Shown in pieces: positions 44,147 through 53,279 of a stretch of 64,000 nucleotides of DNA. Under the pieces are notes generated by a model. The model was not told where the DNA came from. It saw only the letters and a program-made list of their open reading frames with translations, and made no database searches. Both the position numbers and the translations under genes were made by a program. How positions within the stretch are numbered: position 1 is the first letter of the stretch; every line of letters begins with the position of its first letter. The stretch spans positions 248,001-312,000 of the forward strand of contig NZ_JABEDH010000001.1 in assembly GCF_029285175.1 (NCBI RefSeq), in the 5' to 3' direction. The stretch is from Sulfitobacter sp. M05. GTDB taxonomy: Bacteria; Pseudomonadota; Alphaproteobacteria; Rhodobacterales; Rhodobacteraceae.

Positions 44147-45118
44147 TTACGCGGCACCGGGGATTTGTACCCGCCGGCTGCCTTCCTGAAATGCATCCAT
44201 TCCCAGATGCCATGTCGTGCCGGGCCAGCGGATTTCCATTTCGCCCAGCCTTGGCCGGTAAACGGCGGTATAAAGTGTGCCGAAACCGGCGCTAAAGGCC
44301 GTGGAGTATAGTGGCGGGCGCAGGAAGGCGTTGATGAACGTATCCTGAGGATCGCGGTGTAAGGCCAGACGCTGTAACAGAAACCTTTCGCGCTCAACGG
44401 TTGCGGTGAACCGGGCATGGCTGATCCACTCGATATTTTCCTGATGGTTCGTTGCCACCGCTGCATGGGTGATCACGGCAGGTCGATCCGGTGCCATCAT
44501 CGCCGTTAGATAGGTGCGCTGCGCGTCCAGCACGGTAACGTTATAGCTCATATGGGTGGGCACGCGGGCCAGCACGGCACCGGCCTGTTCTGCGGTGGTG
44601 CAGGTTTGCAGGACATAACGCAGGATCAGCGGCACGCCGAAACCGGTGCCAACCACCCGCCGCCCCCCAAAGGTCAGCGAAATCGCAAGCCCTGCGTCAT
44701 TCATGCCATCCACCAATCCCCACAGCCCGTCCGAGGTGCCGACCACGCGCCGCCCCTGCCAGTTGGTGCGCAGCACAAGGCTGTCGAAGGCGTTGGCGTT
44801 ATAGTCATAATTGCGCACCATGACCGGTTCCGCGCCGCTCCAGATCGCCTGAGAACAACCGGCCAGATAGGGCGGCGGGCAGTAGAAACTCAGGAAGCGC
44901 GCGGCCTGATCGCCACCGCCAGCCAGTTCGCACAGGGTGTCATACAGGGGCACGATTTCCGGCATATGTGTGAGCAGGGCGCGACGACTGACCAGATAGT
45001 TCGCGCGGGCAGGGTCGCCCTCTCTCAGCCACCAGCGCTTATAGGCGGGCCAGTATTCTGCGAAAAGCCCGGCCCACTTGGGACCGGGCAATTCTTCGCT
45101 GAGGGCGCGCCAGAGCAT
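44147..45118 (-). CDS. C45-type Ntn-hydrolase (acyl-CoA:6-APA acyltransferase-like)
   Basis: 323 residues. FLSFYCPPPYLAGCSQAIWS and GAEPVMVRNYDYNANAFDSL match the C45 acyltransferase family, in which a Cys after Gly (here G87-C88) becomes the N-terminal nucleophile by self-cleavage. GTSDGLWGLVDGMNDAGLAI and THAAVATNHQENIEWISHAR are later family blocks. Members transfer or hydrolyse acyl groups on amines. It is last in a minus-strand operon of amidase, decarboxylase and ATP-grasp ligase, starting 9 bases after the ligase. That context suggests formation or trimming of an amide-linked product, not penicillin chemistry. Confidence 0.82.
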   Translation of the reverse strand: MLWRALSEELPGPKWAGLFAEYWPAYKRWWLREGDPARANYLVSRRALLTHMPEIVPLYDTLCELAGGGDQAARFLSFYCPPPYLAGCSQAIWSGAEPVMVRNYDYNANAFDSLVLRTNWQGRRVVGTSDGLWGLVDGMNDAGLAISLTFGGRRVVGTGFGVPLILRYVLQTCTTAEQAGAVLARVPTHMSYNVTVLDAQRTYLTAMMAPDRPAVITHAAVATNHQENIEWISHARFTATVERERFLLQRLALHRDPQDTFINAFLRPPLYSTAFSAGFGTLYTAVYRPRLGEMEIRWPGTTWHLGMDAFQEGSRRVQIPGAA

Positions 45119-45127
45119 GGCTCCTCC

Positions 45128-46585
45128 TTACAGGATTTTGAAAGCGGGATCGGCCACCACCGGCCCCGCGTTGGCCGCAGGCAGGGGTTTGCCTTCAACG
45201 GTTTTCTTGATGCCGTGGATCCACTTTTTAGCCCGTTCGTTCAACTGGAAAGATTTGGTCATCGAACGGCCCCGCGTCACCAAAATACCGATGTCGGCCC
45301 CCTCATAGCGGTAATCACCCGGTTGCAGGATACGCAGGAAAAAGGCCTCGTTCTCGGATTCGACAGCACGACGGTGATAGTCGAACCGGTCATAGACCAC
45401 TGATCCGTCTTCCAGCATCTTATAGATGCCGGTTTCAGGGGCGTCGGTGCAAATATCGACACTGTCGTCAGTATGTTTGATCACCATTTGTGACCAACTG
45501 TCGATCATTTCAGGGTCGGCCCAGCGATCGTTCAGCTCTGACGTATCCAGATCGAATTTCTTTTTCGAGAATTCCAATAGGTGGAACAGGAACAACGGGG
45601 CATCCGCATGGGCAAAGGCGGCGTGGTTGGTCATCGACGAGGCCCCGGTGATGCGTGGATTTAATTCCCCCAGCCAGATGTCACCGGTTTTCTTGTCGAT
45701 CAGGAAATCCAGTTCGAAATACCCGCGATAGCCTTCCTTGCGCAGCTGTTCACCGAACTTGAAGGTCAATTCCCGTGCCTTTTGCCGGACCTTGGGCGGA
45801 AAGGCGGTGGACAGAATTTCGTTGCCACACCACCCCCCGCGATAAGGCGTCAACTCCTTGAAACCGACCAGCTCGGTCATCAGGGGGCCGACGATGGTGC
45901 CTTCCTTCGTGGCGCAGGCTTCGATTGCGGAACCACGGCAATCAATCCGTTTCATGATCTTGATCTCGCCCTCGCCGACAATTTCATGTTCGTGGCGGCG
46001 AAAGTCGGCTTCGGATTTGATAAAGAACGTGGTGTGGCCCGAGTCACCAAAGGCAGATTGAAGCACAAGATCATCGCCGATCCCGGCTTTTTCACAGGTC
46101 TTTTTCAACCCTTCGTAACTTTTGACCTCGGCCAGAACATTGGGCACCGATGGCACACCGGCCTTGTTGCCAATGCGGACGGTTTCGATCTTGTTGTCCA
46201 TCTTGGTGCGCAGCTTGGCCTTGGGGAACCAGACATCTGCACCCAGCTCTTTGGACAGGCGTTCGGTCTCCTTGTCGAACATCAGAAACACAAATTTCGG
46301 TTTGCCACCGCGCCGTTTGATAAAGTCGATGACTTCCTTGTGCTGCAAAAGGTAGTTGTTGATGTCTTCAATGGATTGGAATTCTGCGTGCGGCTGTTCC
46401 GAGGGGCAAAAGACATTCGGGTGCTTGCCGCCATAGCAGTCGATGTAGCAGATATATTTGAAGTTCTTTACCCATTCATCGAGCCCGAGAAGGTTAAAGT
46501 TGGTCGCCGAAATGAAATAAACCGGGTCTTCGTTGCGGTGAAAAAAACGGCGGATTTCCGAGATATTTTTAAGAACTGTTGGCAT
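45128..46585 (-). CDS. ATP-grasp ligase
   Basis: 485 residues. The first 110 residues lack a recognised domain. The ATP-grasp core follows: ETVRIGNKAGVPSVPNVLAE, DDLVLQSAFGDSGHTTFFIK (ATP-binding loop), GEIKIMKRIDCRGSAIEACA and, near residue 320, YFELDFLIDKKTGDIWLGEL with NPRITGASSMTNHAAF, whose E and N are metal ligands. ATP-grasp enzymes join a carboxylate to an amine or thiol via an acyl-phosphate. It is 14 bases after the decarboxylase and 9 before the C45 gene, so the four are one operon. It may ligate an amino acid to the decarboxylation product; the substrate is inference. Confidence 0.85.
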   Translation of the reverse strand: MPTVLKNISEIRRFFHRNEDPVYFISATNFNLLGLDEWVKNFKYICYIDCYGGKHPNVFCPSEQPHAEFQSIEDINNYLLQHKEVIDFIKRRGGKPKFVFLMFDKETERLSKELGADVWFPKAKLRTKMDNKIETVRIGNKAGVPSVPNVLAEVKSYEGLKKTCEKAGIGDDLVLQSAFGDSGHTTFFIKSEADFRRHEHEIVGEGEIKIMKRIDCRGSAIEACATKEGTIVGPLMTELVGFKELTPYRGGWCGNEILSTAFPPKVRQKARELTFKFGEQLRKEGYRGYFELDFLIDKKTGDIWLGELNPRITGASSMTNHAAFAHADAPLFLFHLLEFSKKKFDLDTSELNDRWADPEMIDSWSQMVIKHTDDSVDICTDAPETGIYKMLEDGSVVYDRFDYHRRAVESENEAFFLRILQPGDYRYEGADIGILVTRGRSMTKSFQLNERAKKWIHGIKKTVEGKPLPAANAGPVVADPAFKIL

Positions 46586-46599
46586 GTTTTTTCCTTTTT

Positions 46600-49341
46600 T
46601 TATTCGGCGGCAGGTTTGATTGTTTTTGGTGAAATGACGCTTTCGAGGGCTTCGGTGGTAAAGACGCGCAAGCCCAGATCGGCGCGGTAGCCGTGGATTT
46701 CGCTGACATCCAGCGCCCGCATAAAGGCAAGGATTTCTTTGCTGACCACCTGTCCGGGGACGAGGATGGGGAACCCCGGCGGGTAGGGGATGATGAAACC
46801 AGCTGAAACCACTTCCTGGCCTGCGTCCAGCGCTTCTTGCAAAGACCCTTCCAGTTCAAGGTAGTCACAATTCGCTTCGGTATAGCTTAGGTAATAAGCC
46901 GTGCGGATATCCCCTTCGGGGGTCACGTCATCAGGGCGGAACGCATCGTGAAAGCGGCTGAAGTCGGGCAGGGGGGGATAGTTCTCGGTCAGGTTTTTTA
47001 CTCTGCGGTCGAACGACAGAAGCTCCATCTTGGAGGCATCATCCAGCAGGTCGTCCAGTTCATTGGCAATCTCGACCAGCACCTCGATTAGATAGGCAAC
47101 CGAGGACCGCGTGGTGCCGATATTGGTCATGAACAGAACCGTATTGCGCGAGGTTTTGTTGATCTGGATGCCGTATCTGTCCATCAGGATCTGGGTCTTG
47201 AAAGTATCCCCGTCCCAACCTGTGCCGCCCACCGCCAGCGTGACCCGCGTGGCGTCCAGCACAAAATCATCCTGTTCCCAACAGTCCCACATGTCGGTCC
47301 AGCCCTGATCATTGTCAAAGTAGCTGGACACGCCACTTTGGCGGTGATGTTCGGGGATCATGTCGCCCGCCGTCAGCACCCGAAAGTACTTTTGCAAGGT
47401 CGGGTGGCTGCTGATGGCTTTGCGCATCGACATTGCCGCCTCGATCTGGCGCTGCACAAATTCGAAGCCTTCCAGTTCGACCTGCCGCCGCCCCACATCC
47501 AGCGAGGCGATGATCTGGTAATTGGGCGATGTCGATGTATGGGTCATATAGGCCTCGTGAAAGGACTGTTCGACCTCGCCTTTGAAGTCCTGATCATTCA
47601 CGTGGATCATCGACCCCTGCCTGAGCGATGTCAGGGTTTTATGTGTGGATTGAGTGGCATAGACCCTGATCCTTGCATCGGGCGGTGCGATGAGGCGGGT
47701 GTTCAGCAGGGTCTCGTCTGACGCGCCATCCAGCTCGATCTGTTGCAGGTCATAATCACGCCGGTGATCCTCAGTGCGCAGCCGTCGGCGCAGGTTGTTG
47801 GCGGTGCGCATTCCGGTACGCTGGCGGTAGGTCGGGCTGAAACGGGCAAAGGCAAACCATGCTTCATCCCAGAGGAACACAAGATCCGGCTTGATTGCCA
47901 GACATTCCTCCATCACGCGCTCGACGTTGTAGACCAGTCCGTCAAAAGTGCAGTTGGTCAGCAAAAGCATCCGTACACGGTCCAGCTTGCCCGCGGCCTT
48001 AAGTGCCAAGAGCTGGTGTTTGATCTCCTTCAGCGGCACCGCGCCATACATTGAGTATTCATTCAGCGGATAACTGTCGAGATAGACCACTTCGGCCCCC
48101 GCCAGTACCATGCCGTAGTGATGGGATTTGTGGCAATCGCGGTCCACCAGCACAATGTCACCGGGGCGCACGACGGCCTGAACAACAATCTTGTTACAAG
48201 TCGAGGTGCCATTGGTGGCAAAGAAGGTCTGCTTTGATCCAAAGGCGCGGCTGGCCAGTTCCTGCGCCTCTTTGATGGGCCCATGGGGTTCCAGCAGGGA
48301 ATCTAGACCACCAGAGGTGGCAGAGGTTTCCGCAAGAAAGATGTTGGGCCCGTAAAACGCCCCCATGTCCTGAATCCAATGCGACCGCGTGATTGATTTG
48401 CCGCGGCTGATTGGCATGGCGTGGAAAACGCCGGTGGGCTGTTTGGAATATTCAACAAGGGCAGTGAAAAACGGTGTCTTGTTGCGTGCTGCCACACCGC
48501 GCAGGATGTTCAGGTGCAGCTCCATGAAGTCTTCTTGGTTGTAGAAAACCCGCCGGCAAATCCCCAGATCAAGGCCTGCAATATCCTCGACCGAGCGTTC
48601 CGTGACCAGATAGGCATCCAGTTCGGGCCGCACGCGCGCAATCAGGCGGCACAGTTCGGGGCCGTAATCTTCGGGGGCCATTGTGTCGATTGACTCTGTG
48701 TGGCTGGCGTTATGGGCGTATTTGGCCAGAATTTCATTGTCGTTCTTGGATTTCAGAACCAGACCGGGACGCACAACAATCGCCTGGATGTTGTGGTTGA
48801 ACAACACGGCAATCAACGCGTCTTCAAGGCTGGGCACCACCACGGCCTCGTAATGGAACGGGTCTTCGGGGCGGCGCATTCGCGAGACATTGCTTTTTAG
48901 CCAGCGGTCTTGTTGGTCGTTCACATTGTCGACGATCAACACCTCAAAATAGGGGCGGGCCATCGCCCGTGCCTCGGGGGACAGCATGGCCTCGTCGTTG
49001 TGTTCTTCGTCATCAGAACTGTCGCGTTCCAACGGGATTGTGCGGCGGCGATAAGCGCCCGTGGTCAGCGCCCGTTTGACGCGGTTGGTGGTAAAGGACA
49101 GATCATCAAAATGGCCGTTTTCGAATTGGCGGCGCATCTGATCAAAGGCGGCCATGCCGGGGAAGGCCCAATAGGGTTCTATCAGGGCCAGAGAGGCGAA
49201 CATCTCTTGAATATGCCGCTTGAGGCTTTCGGCCCTTCTTGCGTTGCCTTCGCGGCACAGCGACGTCACGCTTTCGCGTAACGCGCTCCACCTGTCGGCG
49301 CGCAACTGTGTTGCGGAATAGTAATCGCTGACGGAATCCAT
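46600..49341 (-). CDS. Orn/Lys/Arg decarboxylase family protein (PLP fold type I)
   Basis: 913 residues from ATG 49341 with GGGAGA upstream; a longer frame from 49515 has no ribosome site. It has an N-terminal response-regulator-like wing (VLIVDNVNDQQDRWL is the visible part), then the aminotransferase-like core. TSGGLDSLLEPHGPIKEAQE, FGSKQTFFATNGTSTCNKIV, VLVDRDCHKSHHYGMVLAGA and PDLVFLWDEAWFAF come before the PLP-lysine motif ATQSTHKTLTSLRQGSM (K568). It would make agmatine, cadaverine or putrescine, the choice not being readable. The length suits biodegradative-type arginine or lysine decarboxylases. It lies first after the amidase gene (61 bases). Confidence 0.9.
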   Translation of the reverse strand: MDSVSDYYSATQLRADRWSALRESVTSLCREGNARRAESLKRHIQEMFASLALIEPYWAFPGMAAFDQMRRQFENGHFDDLSFTTNRVKRALTTGAYRRRTIPLERDSSDDEEHNDEAMLSPEARAMARPYFEVLIVDNVNDQQDRWLKSNVSRMRRPEDPFHYEAVVVPSLEDALIAVLFNHNIQAIVVRPGLVLKSKNDNEILAKYAHNASHTESIDTMAPEDYGPELCRLIARVRPELDAYLVTERSVEDIAGLDLGICRRVFYNQEDFMELHLNILRGVAARNKTPFFTALVEYSKQPTGVFHAMPISRGKSITRSHWIQDMGAFYGPNIFLAETSATSGGLDSLLEPHGPIKEAQELASRAFGSKQTFFATNGTSTCNKIVVQAVVRPGDIVLVDRDCHKSHHYGMVLAGAEVVYLDSYPLNEYSMYGAVPLKEIKHQLLALKAAGKLDRVRMLLLTNCTFDGLVYNVERVMEECLAIKPDLVFLWDEAWFAFARFSPTYRQRTGMRTANNLRRRLRTEDHRRDYDLQQIELDGASDETLLNTRLIAPPDARIRVYATQSTHKTLTSLRQGSMIHVNDQDFKGEVEQSFHEAYMTHTSTSPNYQIIASLDVGRRQVELEGFEFVQRQIEAAMSMRKAISSHPTLQKYFRVLTAGDMIPEHHRQSGVSSYFDNDQGWTDMWDCWEQDDFVLDATRVTLAVGGTGWDGDTFKTQILMDRYGIQINKTSRNTVLFMTNIGTTRSSVAYLIEVLVEIANELDDLLDDASKMELLSFDRRVKNLTENYPPLPDFSRFHDAFRPDDVTPEGDIRTAYYLSYTEANCDYLELEGSLQEALDAGQEVVSAGFIIPYPPGFPILVPGQVVSKEILAFMRALDVSEIHGYRADLGLRVFTTEALESVISPKTIKPAAE

Positions 49342-49402
49342 CGTTCGTTCTCCCTGTTTGGGCCGAACAGATGGTCCGTAGCTTTTGCTACCGATCCTCT
49401 GT

Positions 49403-50377
49403 TCAGCTGCCTGTTGTCTTGCCAATGCCGGGCGAAATGCCGATCCCCAGTTTGGGATCATGGTCATGCAATTCGGCCTCGGCAGTGGCGGGCAGATCGA
49501 CGTGCAAACCGGCACGTGATCCTTGTTGCGGTACGGCCAGAGGCCCCAACGTATTCAAATAGCTGTCGACGCCGCTGTTACGGTCATAAACCGAAAAGTC
49601 GGTGGACCGGTCGCGGAAGGATTTCAAAACCTGCCCCAGACCTTTCATGCCGGTTTCGCGCTGACGGCGCACCATCGAAAGGTCGATTTCAATCGGGAAC
49701 ATATCTTCCTGGCCTTGCGACTGGTGCAGGACCAAGGAGGTCGGATCAACGATGCAAGATCGCCCGACACCACCAGCGCCCAAGCCGTTGACATCAATGA
49801 CATAACACTGGAATTGTGCAGCTGTTGCCCGGGCAATTGCCAGCTCCGCATCGCGGTCGGTTGTGCCGGTCAGCACAGGGTGCAACAACACCTCAACCCC
49901 TTGCGAGGTCAACTGCCGCGTGGTTTCGGGGAACCACATATCATAACAGATCGACAGGCCGAACCGCCCCACCTCCGGAACGTCAAACACACAGAAATCC
50001 GTACCTGCTGCGACGCCCTCTTCATAGGGCAGGAACGGGAACATTTTCGCATAACGCCGGATCACGTCACCGTCCGGATTGATCACCAGCGAGGTGTTGC
50101 GTACCAGCCCATCCTCGGGGCTGGTCAGGAACATCGACCCCGGGATCAGCCAGATTTTATGCCGGCGTGCGGCCTCGCAGAATTTGTCGATGATGTCATT
50201 TTCCGGTGGCAGTTTGAATTCTTCCAACGGGCCGAAAGGGGCCAGTTCGCTGAACAGCACCATTTGCGTCCAGGGAAAGCGCATCATCAAGAGATCGAGG
50301 CGCTGCAACATGCCCTCGACATTGGGGTGAAGGGCGTTGACGTACATCTGTACGCCGGCAATTGCAAAAGGGGTCAT
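49403..50377 (-). CDS. Carbon-nitrogen hydrolase (nitrilase superfamily)
   Basis: 324 residues. The E-K-C triad is visible: glutamate in VLFSELAPFGPLEEF, lysine in VIRRYAKMFPFLPYE and cysteine in GLSICYDMWFPETTRQLTSQ. GVEVLLHPVLTGTTDRDAEL and VNGLGAGGVGRSCIVDPTSL are family blocks. The C-terminal 60 residues form an extension typical of amidases that oligomerise. It is the first gene of the amidase-decarboxylase-ligase-acyltransferase operon. N-carbamoylputrescine amidase-like action on an agmatine-derived product is plausible, but its specificity is not determined. Confidence 0.87.
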   Translation of the reverse strand: MTPFAIAGVQMYVNALHPNVEGMLQRLDLLMMRFPWTQMVLFSELAPFGPLEEFKLPPENDIIDKFCEAARRHKIWLIPGSMFLTSPEDGLVRNTSLVINPDGDVIRRYAKMFPFLPYEEGVAAGTDFCVFDVPEVGRFGLSICYDMWFPETTRQLTSQGVEVLLHPVLTGTTDRDAELAIARATAAQFQCYVIDVNGLGAGGVGRSCIVDPTSLVLHQSQGQEDMFPIEIDLSMVRRQRETGMKGLGQVLKSFRDRSTDFSVYDRNSGVDSYLNTLGPLAVPQQGSRAGLHVDLPATAEAELHDHDPKLGIGISPGIGKTTGS

Positions 50378-51072: not shown

Positions 51073-52491
51073 CTAGGCCTGCTGTTCGGCCATTGCCGCA
51101 ATTAGGGCCTCTTCGAAGATCGCGATGCCTTCATCAATGATTGCATCCGATGCGGTCAGCGGGACCATGATCCGCAAGGCGTTGCCGTGCATCCCACAGG
51201 CCAACAGGATCAAGCCGCGTTTCAAGGCATGTGCAACAACCGCTTTGGTCAGGGCCGCATCCGGTGTGGCGGTCTCGAAATCTGTGACAAATTCGATGGC
51301 CAGCATCGCGCCCAGCCCGCGAATATCCCACATGCGATAGGGGGCAACACGGGCACCGACCTCGGCAAAGCGCGCGCGGAAGGTCTCGCCCAATGCGGTG
51401 GAGCGGGCAAGCAGCCCTTCTTCCTCGATCGCTTCAATTGCCGCCAAAGCTGCGGCGCAGGCGACGGGGTTCCCGCCATAGGTGCCACCCAGACCACCGG
51501 GAATAACCGCGTCCATCACTTCGGCGCGGCCAATCACGCCGGCAATCGGATACCCGCCAGCCATGGATTTCGCGACAGTGATCAGATCCGGCACGACACC
51601 GGAGTGTTCAATCGCAAACCATGTGCCAGTACGACCAAAGCCGGCCTGAATTTCGTCTGCAATCAACATGATCCCATGCTGGTCACAGATGTCACGCAGG
51701 GCGGTCATCATCTCGAAGGGGACCGGCGTATACCCCCCCTCACCCAGAACAGGCTCGATGATGATACAGGCGATACGTTCTGGCTGGGCATCTGTCAGGA
51801 ACAGATTTTGCAAGCCTGTCAGCGCGTCCTGTACTGTGATGCCGTCGCGCAGCGACGGGAAGGGCGCGCGGAAGATATCGGAAGGGAAGGGGCCGACATC
51901 CTTTTTGTAGGGCGATACCTTGCCGGTCATGCCCAGCGTCAGCAACGTGCGGCCGTGATAACCACCAGTAAAGGCAATAACACCGGGACGGCCTGTTGCC
52001 GCACGGGCAATCTTTACTGCGTTTTCAACGGCCTCGGCACCTGTGGTGACCAGCAGGGATTTCTTGGCGTGATCCCCCGGTGCCAGTGCGTTCAGCTTTT
52101 CGGCCAAGGCAACATAGGGCTCGTAAGGCACAACCTGAAAGCTGGTGTGTGTATAGTGGTCTTCCTGCGCCTTGGCTGCGGCCACAACTTTCGGGTGACG
52201 ATGACCGGTGTTCAGAACCGCAATGCCGCCAGCAAAATCAACATAGCGGTTGCCTTCGACGTCCCACAGTTCGGCGTTTTCCGCGTGATCGGCATAGACC
52301 GGCGCAGCAGATGCAACGCCACGTGCAACCGCCGCGTCGCGGCGGGCCACAAGAGCGGCGTTCGTCTTGTCATTGGCTGCGGCGGCAGGCGCAGCGGCAT
52401 CCGTCACAACCGAGACCGCTGGCTTTGCCTTGGCTTTGGCCATGGTTTTGGTCGGTGTCTTGCGGGTCTTCTTTTTCACAGTGTTCGACAT
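51073..52491 (-). CDS. gabT: 4-aminobutyrate aminotransferase (GABA / putrescine pathway), with N-terminal extension
   Basis: 472 residues from ATG 52491, which has AGGAG upstream. Motifs of class III aminotransferases are in order: WDVEGNRYVDFAGGIAVLNT, LLVTTGAEAVENAVKIARAA, AFTGGYHGRTLLTLGMTG, MLIADEIQAGFGRTGTWFA, and DLITVAKSMAGGYPIAGVIG with the PLP lysine. It converts GABA to succinic semialdehyde. The first about 45 residues (KKKTRKTPTKTMAKAKAKPA) are a Lys/Ala/Pro-rich tail that most GabTs lack; the normal N-terminus resumes at ALVARRDAAVARGV. A PuuR-like regulator diverges from it, which fits control by polyamines or GABA. Confidence 0.92.
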   Translation of the reverse strand: MSNTVKKKTRKTPTKTMAKAKAKPAVSVVTDAAAPAAAANDKTNAALVARRDAAVARGVASAAPVYADHAENAELWDVEGNRYVDFAGGIAVLNTGHRHPKVVAAAKAQEDHYTHTSFQVVPYEPYVALAEKLNALAPGDHAKKSLLVTTGAEAVENAVKIARAATGRPGVIAFTGGYHGRTLLTLGMTGKVSPYKKDVGPFPSDIFRAPFPSLRDGITVQDALTGLQNLFLTDAQPERIACIIIEPVLGEGGYTPVPFEMMTALRDICDQHGIMLIADEIQAGFGRTGTWFAIEHSGVVPDLITVAKSMAGGYPIAGVIGRAEVMDAVIPGGLGGTYGGNPVACAAALAAIEAIEEEGLLARSTALGETFRARFAEVGARVAPYRMWDIRGLGAMLAIEFVTDFETATPDAALTKAVVAHALKRGLILLACGMHGNALRIMVPLTASDAIIDEGIAIFEEALIAAMAEQQA

Positions 52492-52724
52492 GGCGAGGCT
52501 CCTACGGCATCTGAACATGAATGCCCCCAAAGGATGATTCCAAAATTGGGCGCGTTTAAAATTCTCATAGTGCGTTTATTATATCTGTCAATGATGAACG
52601 TGATGGGGGCACAGCTGTCAGGCAGGTATGTTTCGTTTGTTTTCCGCATTTGGCTTTTGACCACCCTCAAGATGCGCTAGAGAAGCCGCTAACCCCGAAC
52701 AGCGAACAAACGAGGGAAAGTGTT

Positions 52725-53279
52725 GTGAACATTGGGAGAAGATTGCAGCAATTGCGCAAGGCACACGGGTTGTCTCAGCGCGAGCTGGCCGCGCGCGCCG
52801 GTTTGACCAACGGCACAATTTCGCTGATCGAGCAGAACAAGACGAGCCCCTCGGTGGCCTCTCTCAAGAGCCTGCTGGACGCGATCCCGATGAGCATCGC
52901 CGAGTTTTTTGCCAATATCGAGGAAGAAACCCAGCCCACGTATTTCTACAAAGCGGACGAATTTGTCGAACTTGCGCCCCAATCGGGCGGCCCAACGGTT
53001 TCATTGCGCCAACTTGGCAATGCCAGCAACCATGCCTTGCAGGTGCTGGATGAGACCTATCCGCCGCAGGCTGACACAGGGCCCGAATTATTGACCCACG
53101 CGGGCGAAGAGGCCGGGATTGTGATTGCCGGCGAGATCGAGATTACTGTCGCAGACCAGAGCCGGGTGTTGCGCAGCGGTGAAGGGTATCTGTTTGACAG
53201 CCGCCTGCCGCATCGTTTTCGCAACATCAGCGACGCGCCATGCAAAATAATAAGTGCCTGCACGCCGCCAACTTTCTAG
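52725..53279 (+). CDS. XRE-cupin transcriptional regulator (PuuR-like)
   Basis: 184 residues from GTG 52725, with GAGGGA 7 bases upstream; an upstream TTG at 52650 is a weaker choice. The helix-turn-helix has IGRRLQQLRKAHGLSQRELA, GLTNGTISLIEQNKTSPSVA and SLKSLLDAIPMSIAEFFANI. The C-terminal part is a cupin (GPELLTHAGEEAGIVIAGEI, GEGYLFDSRLPHRFRNISDA) that binds the effector. This is the PuuR-type architecture, and divergence from gabT points to regulation of GABA or putrescine degradation. The effector is likely a polyamine or amine intermediate. Confidence 0.88.
   Translation: MNIGRRLQQLRKAHGLSQRELAARAGLTNGTISLIEQNKTSPSVASLKSLLDAIPMSIAEFFANIEEETQPTYFYKADEFVELAPQSGGPTVSLRQLGNASNHALQVLDETYPPQADTGPELLTHAGEEAGIVIAGEIEITVADQSRVLRSGEGYLFDSRLPHRFRNISDAPCKIISACTPPTF

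Follow-up and report, generated by a model that had tools for sequence, protein, structure and literature searches.

The window considered here is a stretch of 64,000 nucleotides from Sulfitobacter sp. M05 (Rhodobacterales; contig NZ_JABEDH010000001.1, positions 248,001 to 312,000), and the subject is an operon of four enzyme genes at its positions 44,147 to 50,377. The genes, called NIT, DEC, GRASP and C45 below, are, from first to last:

49403..50377, minus strand: NIT, the first gene, a nitrilase-superfamily (carbon-nitrogen hydrolase) amidase of 324 residues with a Glu44-Lys111-Cys144 triad
46600..49341, minus strand: DEC, a pyridoxal phosphate (PLP) decarboxylase from the Orn/Lys/Arg decarboxylase family, in which it falls in the Rv2531c subfamily; it has 913 residues from the ATG at 49341
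45128..46585, minus strand: GRASP, an ATP-grasp protein of 485 residues, NCBIfam NF005096/PRK06524 (named 'biotin carboxylase')
44147..45118, minus strand: C45, the last gene, 323 residues; a member of the autoproteolytic C45 family of N-terminal nucleophile (Ntn) acyltransferases/amidohydrolases, with Cys88 as nucleophile

The original prediction, made from the sequence alone, placed these genes on one strand with gaps of 61, 14 and 9 bases, and all of this proved exact on re-checking. Its statement that the four catalytic centres are intact also holds: the key residues are present and are invariant across the aligned related loci, in counts that take in near-duplicate loci and paralogues.

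The four genes are a real module and not a chance grouping. Among 149 sampled Rhodobacterales genomes, GRASP is found over the cut-off in 33, and DEC (E 1e-100) is found in the identical 33, which span 19 of 72 genera. If the two genes were independent, identical sets would arise by chance with a probability of about 1e-33, a figure that is only illustrative because relatedness and linkage are ignored. In all 33 genomes (32 fetched loci and the window), the four genes lie in one neighbourhood; at one of these loci (L049), genes for a 4-aminobutyrate aminotransferase (GabT) and a PuuR-like protein separate NIT from DEC within the cluster. A second collection gave all four genes in 76 of the best 80 of at least 462 loci, and the remaining four (L094, L100, L109 and L138) end at contig ends. 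Over both sources, which overlap and hold 103 loci distinct by GRASP sequence, the genes follow the order NIT-DEC-GRASP-C45 on one strand in 107 of 112 Rhodobacterales loci; of the other five, a single locus has the order DEC-NIT-GRASP-C45 and four are truncated at a contig end. The genes also diverge in step. Pairwise divergences of the four correlate with r of 0.87-0.94 across 107 loci that have the complete set, 94 of which belong to Rhodobacterales, against a permuted maximum of 0.34. Within the 94 Rhodobacterales loci, NIT correlates with the others at 0.54-0.55, and DEC, GRASP and C45 correlate mutually at 0.80-0.83.

Thus, the genes do stay together in other Rhodobacterales, as the original prediction had asked, and they do so beyond the order as well. 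Rhizobia, Cupriavidus and other classes of Pseudomonadota have the module too, with its genes in several orders. Outside Rhodobacterales, the GRASP family is sparse (E 1e-60), with 11 of 398 Pseudomonadota, 11 of 385 genomes of the class, and 6 of 194 and 7 of 274 genomes in two further samples; these four samples overlap with each other and with the 149 Rhodobacterales genomes. Beyond the Rhodobacterales set there are 32 distinct loci, some of which are truncated at a contig end; C45 lies near GRASP in 30 of the 32, DEC in 25 and NIT in 18. Two loci (L078 and L079) have the order NIT-GRASP-C45-DEC, and two others (L081 and L182) have DEC-GRASP-C45 without NIT. That four unrelated enzymes, each from a family that is broad by itself, are neighbours by accident has practically no probability: this idea is already contradicted by the identical sets in 33 of 149 genomes and by the togetherness of the genes across rearranged orders.

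Loci L081, L182, L187 and L188 carry a divergent version of the module, with GRASP at 40-44% identity and no NIT found, L187 and L188 being cut by contig ends; recurring downstream genes at these four loci (clusters c10 and c20) look secreted by eye. Plasmid records with GRASP relatives at E 1e-40 number 32 (Rhizobium, Sinorhizobium, Cupriavidus, Shinella and others), and 24 of these relatives cover at least 80% of the query. On one R. leguminosarum plasmid (L165), DEC is in two frames and C45 is shortened near transposase genes, and partial GRASP copies occur on seven S. medicae plasmids and one S. meliloti plasmid among those listed. The state of the rhizobial plasmid copies suggests that they are decaying.

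The two enzymes at the ends of the operon belong to families that act on amide bonds. NIT passes CN_hydrolase (97.3 bits, cut-off 23.2), and Glu44, Lys111 and Cys144 are each found in 132 of 132 related loci. Its closest solved relative is mouse Nit2 (104.1 bits); Nit1/Nit2 and N-carbamoylputrescine amidase have the nitrilase fold and the Glu-Lys-Cys triad in common with it. NIT stays under the curated cut-off of all nine NCBIfam models that it matched, with 59.2 bits as a deaminated glutathione amidase (cut-off 500) and 52.4 bits as an N-carbamoylputrescine amidase (AguB; cut-off 410.25). C45 passes both Pfam AAT (101.4 bits, cut-off 23.2) and NF040521 (171.7 bits, cut-off 85), and it has the nucleophile Cys and, in a fold comparison that covers the families of the fold list, the Ntn fold. 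Cys88 (codon 44857-44855) is present in 151 of 151 related loci, and self-cleavage is predicted to occur before it. Isopenicillin N acyltransferase and other Ntn amidases (NAAA and acid ceramidase) are about 12% identical to C45.

GRASP passes NCBIfam NF005096/PRK06524 (755.7 bits, cut-off 684) and has no Pfam match at E 0.001. Glu307 and Asn309 form a Glu-x-Asn motif that is found in 156 of 156 aligned sequences and that we take to be the Mg/ATP-binding residues of an ATP-grasp enzyme. The family name 'biotin carboxylase' probably misleads. GRASP does show a remote relationship to the biotin carboxylase domain (E 1.4e-06 with pyruvate carboxylase), but the RIQVEH segment of biotin carboxylase, whose Glu is presumably the catalytic Glu296, aligns with RITGAS in GRASP, where this Glu is Ala315. 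Family scans gave no match to a biotin carrier in NIT, DEC, GRASP or C45. The distant relationship, together with the ureohydrolase genes that neighbour some loci, would suit an enzyme that carboxylates urea or a guanidine without biotin, with hydrolysis of an amide as the next step, in a system analogous to urea amidolyase. Against such a system stand the Ala in place of the catalytic Glu, the lack of a carrier match in the four proteins, and the finding of a ureohydrolase in the flank of just 6 of 135 distinct loci, and we consider it very improbable. An AlphaFold model of GRASP (41 close homologues) has a mean pLDDT of 40.4, too poor for a fold search, and for this reason the placement of GRASP rests on its sequence. 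That the protein forms an amide bond is plausible.

DEC passes Pfam OKR_DC_1 (265.1 bits, cut-off 27) and retains the PLP-binding Lys568 (codon 47640-47638; 144 of 144 aligned) and its partners Asp492 (143 of 143) and His404 (137 of 137). The original prediction termed it a basic amino-acid decarboxylase. This label is doubtful, because Asn728 (codon 47160-47158) stands where LdcI and AdiA have a Glu; all 145 homologues aligned at this position have Asn there, as does Rv2531c. The Glu that aligns with Asn728 lies in the VEKT motif and, counted on the alignment, is LdcI Glu526; we take this residue, like Glu532 of ornithine decarboxylase, to be the binder of the basic side chain. The name 'Orn/Lys/Arg decarboxylase' probably misleads as well. 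Mycobacterium tuberculosis Rv2531c (PDB 9n0n, 9n0o and 9n0p) matches DEC over nearly its full length (811.7 bits, residues 14-901) and shares with it the Asn at the LdcI/AdiA Glu position. PMC12910592 describes the activity of Rv2531c as unclarified.

Two DEC paralogues of 48% identity (L189 8187-11246 and L190 8569-11322) each have two antiporter-like genes beside them. One antiporter of L189 (11351-13042) is an aspartate-alanine antiporter by TIGR03802 (627.7 bits, cut-off 546.95); the labels of all other antiporters, and those of the TAXI/TRAP, UspA, Dpp, CaiB and L051 TRAP genes, were given by eye. Both paralogues retain the Asn, and no relatives of GRASP, C45 or NIT were found in the 20 kb around them. 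These surroundings suggest a system for acid stress or energy exchange whose decarboxylase is unusual.

The invariant Asn could mean that the substrate of DEC is not a free amino acid. GRASP might first mask a basic amino acid by acylating the nitrogen of its side chain, DEC would then act on the masked form, and C45 and NIT would unmask the amine; the identical genome sets of DEC and GRASP among the 149 genomes also agree with this. Yet the L189 and L190 paralogues keep the Asn with no partner enzyme in the same 20 kb, cores without DEC exist (L051, L052, L164, L167, L168 and L170), and the role of the Glu is carried over from ornithine decarboxylase. This order of acylation, decarboxylation and deacylation is distinctly unlikely.

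Genes around the module give a view of its metabolic setting. In the window, two further genes lie upstream of NIT:

51073..52530, minus strand: GabT, a 4-aminobutyrate aminotransferase, on the same strand as NIT (TIGR00700 548.5 bits, cut-off 506.65; start codon uncertain)
52716..53279, plus strand: a PuuR-like helix-turn-helix-cupin regulator, divergent from GabT (best NCBIfam match PuuR PRK09943; start codon uncertain)

The PuuR match, at 158.7 bits, is below the cut-off of 211. In the fetched flanks of the 103 distinct Rhodobacterales loci, GabT (at least 50% identity) is found at 36, a PuuR-like gene at 29 and both at 23; outside Rhodobacterales, GabT at the same identity is found in the flank of 3 of 32 distinct loci. 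A second aminotransferase, of PRK07483 type, lies in the flank of 29 of the 103 and is a probable optional fifth gene. This class III enzyme (e.g. L040 6693-7946) is directly 3' of C45 in many Rhodobacterales loci and adjoins GRASP in L177 and L179. Mostly upstream of NIT, a TRAP permease was recognised at 61 of 122 loci, a TAXI binding protein at 56 and UspA at 30, duplicates included.

A second core is encoded elsewhere in this genome, on contig C14 (L051 9007-12937; L191). It consists of GRASP-C45-NIT and has no DEC, and its proteins are 44% (GRASP), 44% (C45) and 51% (NIT) identical to those of the window. A run of Puu/Pot-like genes begins about 3.5 kb from this core. In NCBIfam its genes come closest to PuuC (579.8 bits, cut-off 850), gamma-glutamylputrescine synthetase (205.9, cut-off 650), PotF (470.4, cut-off 636) and PotG (480.5, cut-off 613), and its Pot ATPase passes TIGR01187 (416.5, cut-off 355.6). 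Another GabT, about 15 kb from the core, passes TIGR00700 (557.9, cut-off 506.65), and the PuuC-, PuuA-, PotF- and PotG-like genes and this GabT all fall within about 17 kb of the core. A phyletic test with PuuA does not discriminate, as a PuuA-like gene occurs in 97 of 149 genomes at E 1e-150, with nine matches of at least 71% identity. A small opposite-strand open reading frame lies between GRASP and C45 of the second core, and its relative adjoins C45 in L186.

A different set of neighbours appears in Shinella zoogloeoides and on two plasmids of the same gene order (L167 and L170), where there is no DEC in the 21-25 kb fetched. In these Shinella-type loci, for which the family scans were of L164, GRASP-C45 is preceded by genes for an agmatinase (TIGR01230 212.3 bits, cut-off 174.3), a 5-guanidino-2-oxopentanoate decarboxylase (737.0, cut-off 500) and an aldehyde dehydrogenase. 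It is followed by genes for a D-amino-acid dehydrogenase and a racemase, and NIT is about 7 kb off on the other strand. The racemase gene, labelled 'alanine racemase' (L164 13782-15569), adjoins that of the D-amino-acid dehydrogenase and has ornithine racemase Orr as its best match, at 393.3 bits against a cut-off of 480; after it comes a stretch with weak likeness to arginase (44.7 bits). Ureohydrolase genes are found elsewhere as well: one, 75% identical to that of Shinella, directly 3' of C45 in L059 and L148, and others, at 43-45%, upstream of NIT at a distance of 0.9 kb in L172 and 1.7 kb in L174. A ureohydrolase (E 1e-30) is present in 144 of 149 genomes, and a phyletic test is again non-discriminating. 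Metabolites that the Shinella-type and ureohydrolase neighbourhoods may share are arginine, 4-guanidinobutyrate and 4-aminobutyrate (GABA).

As the substrate of DEC, an amino acid that is acidic or neutral, such as glutamate converted directly to GABA, with the other three enzymes handling amides of that amino acid or of GABA, would fit Asn728, the aspartate-alanine antiporter beside the L189 paralogue and the GabT neighbours. The arginine-pathway enzymes that lie near the core in the Shinella-type loci, where DEC is absent, speak against it, and the DEC paralogues may differ in substrate; we regard such a substrate as improbable.

At L078, matches to EhuR, DoeA and DoeB are over their cut-offs, and the operon sits between doeA/doeB-type and doeC/doeD-like genes, the latter presumably with roles in ectoine degradation. 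L077 was grouped with L078, the locus scanned. An assignment of the aldehyde dehydrogenase and aminotransferase genes of these two loci to polyamine metabolism was dropped when DoeA, DoeB and EhuR of L078 passed their cut-offs. A role of the operon itself in ectoine metabolism is not favoured, because it is seen only in these two loci of one family.

The original prediction saw a small-molecule biosynthesis or polyamine-conjugate pathway. The polyamine setting has the support of the arginine and polyamine neighbours; biosynthesis fares less well, since GabT, the PuuR-like gene, the Pot/Puu-like genes, the ureohydrolase, the 2-ketoarginine decarboxylase and the transporters look more catabolic. 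In a biosynthetic pathway for a small excreted or osmoprotective amide, DEC would give an amine, GRASP would couple it to a carboxylate, C45 would be an acyltransferase like isopenicillin N acyltransferase, and NIT would trim or recycle the product. However, neighbour clusters present in at least 30 of 122 loci gave no recognised exporter, carrier protein or synthase, and consist instead of transporter, UspA and aminotransferase genes. A biosynthetic role is possible and, on the whole, unlikely.

We tentatively favour a pathway that would convert arginine or a related amino acid to GABA by way of an amide paid for with ATP, by a logic like that of Puu with unrelated enzymes. DEC would strip CO2 from an amino acid of the arginine/polyamine group or from a derivative of it. 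GRASP would use ATP to couple an amine to a carboxylate, giving a temporary amide, and C45 and the nitrilase-type enzyme would cut or transfer amide bonds to free an amino or guanidino acid of four carbons. Where a GabT gene is adjacent, its product would take this acid onward. The gene set, the intact catalytic residues, the co-occurrence and the neighbourhoods are observed; the substrates, the order of the steps and amide formation by GRASP are what we infer, and a catabolic direction is favoured because the neighbours that can be named look catabolic.

Several observations weigh against this pathway. Asn728 speaks against a free basic amino acid as the substrate of DEC. The four-gene operon has no oxidase or aldehyde dehydrogenase, it has two enzymes that cut amides where the Puu scheme needs one, and the Shinella version yields no free diamine that would need masking. 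The fetched flanks of 67 of the 103 distinct Rhodobacterales loci have no GabT, and NIT is missing in 14 of the 32 loci outside Rhodobacterales, some of which are cut by contig ends. Near the second core, three transporter-like genes come between the PuuC-like gene and the core. The PuuR match in the window and the PuuA, PuuC and PotF matches are best matches under curated cut-offs. The adjacency of ureohydrolase genes is only suggestive, because ureohydrolases occur in 144 of the 149 genomes, and L172 and L174 represent one genus. Finally, L077 and L078 carry the operon inside an ectoine-degradation locus.

One of the closest known systems is the gamma-glutamylation route of putrescine (PuuA/B/C/D/E/R), in which an amine is ligated, oxidised and hydrolysed. 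Likeness to it lies in the GabT gene and, by a match below the cut-off, the PuuR-like gene beside the operon, the probable ATP-dependent ligase and amide hydrolases, and the paralogous core near Pot/Puu-like genes. The ligase of the operon is, however, of the ATP-grasp type, whereas that of Puu is glutamine-synthetase-like; the hydrolases are an Ntn C45 enzyme and a nitrilase instead of PuuD; and the operon has an amino-acid decarboxylase in addition. A PuuA-type ligase, an oxidase and PuuD were not found among the four genes, and a PuuA-like gene is present near the second core only; the operon is set apart from the Puu pathway because PuuA-type ligase and PuuD were sought in it and not found. 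Arginine can also be degraded through 2-ketoarginine and 4-guanidinobutyrate by enzymes of AruI, KauB and GbuA type. Such genes are paired with GRASP, C45 and NIT in the Shinella-type loci, whereas the operon of the window has DEC and no other genes of the route, which itself is not known to need an ATP-grasp or C45 enzyme. PMC7268258 covers part of this route. In fungal E-64 biosynthesis, as described in the available part of PMC12568646, an amine from PLP-dependent decarboxylation is combined with an amide-forming ATP-grasp enzyme, which couples the epoxysuccinate warhead to an amino acid. The operon resembles this system, by description, in its PLP decarboxylase and ATP-grasp protein; that part of the text names no C45 or nitrilase enzyme for E-64. 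In searches of open-access full-text literature, a coverage that leaves most subscription journals outside, none of the papers listed seems, by its title and the start of its abstract, to deal with this gene set.

Together, these results point to a nitrogen-metabolism pathway that appears undescribed and that may be amide-protected amine metabolism in a new form. About one in five of the Rhodobacterales genomes sampled carry the module, which also occurs on plasmids of rhizobia and Cupriavidus, and two of its four proteins are probably misnamed. If the protected-amine route is correct, polyamine catabolism would have a second, independently assembled form. With few candidate substrates, the pathway can be tested with purified enzymes. 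A bolder proposal is a new route of protected decarboxylation from arginine or ornithine to GABA, in which the ATP-grasp enzyme would mask the side-chain nitrogen, the divergent decarboxylase, with Asn for Glu in its side-chain pocket, would act on the masked form, and the Ntn and nitrilase hydrolases would release the amine or the C4 acid; we hold it to be rather unlikely. The module offers a direct way to search for the substrate of the Rv2531c-type decarboxylases, and if protected decarboxylation is true, this subfamily, for which a structure but no activity is known, would gain its first function.

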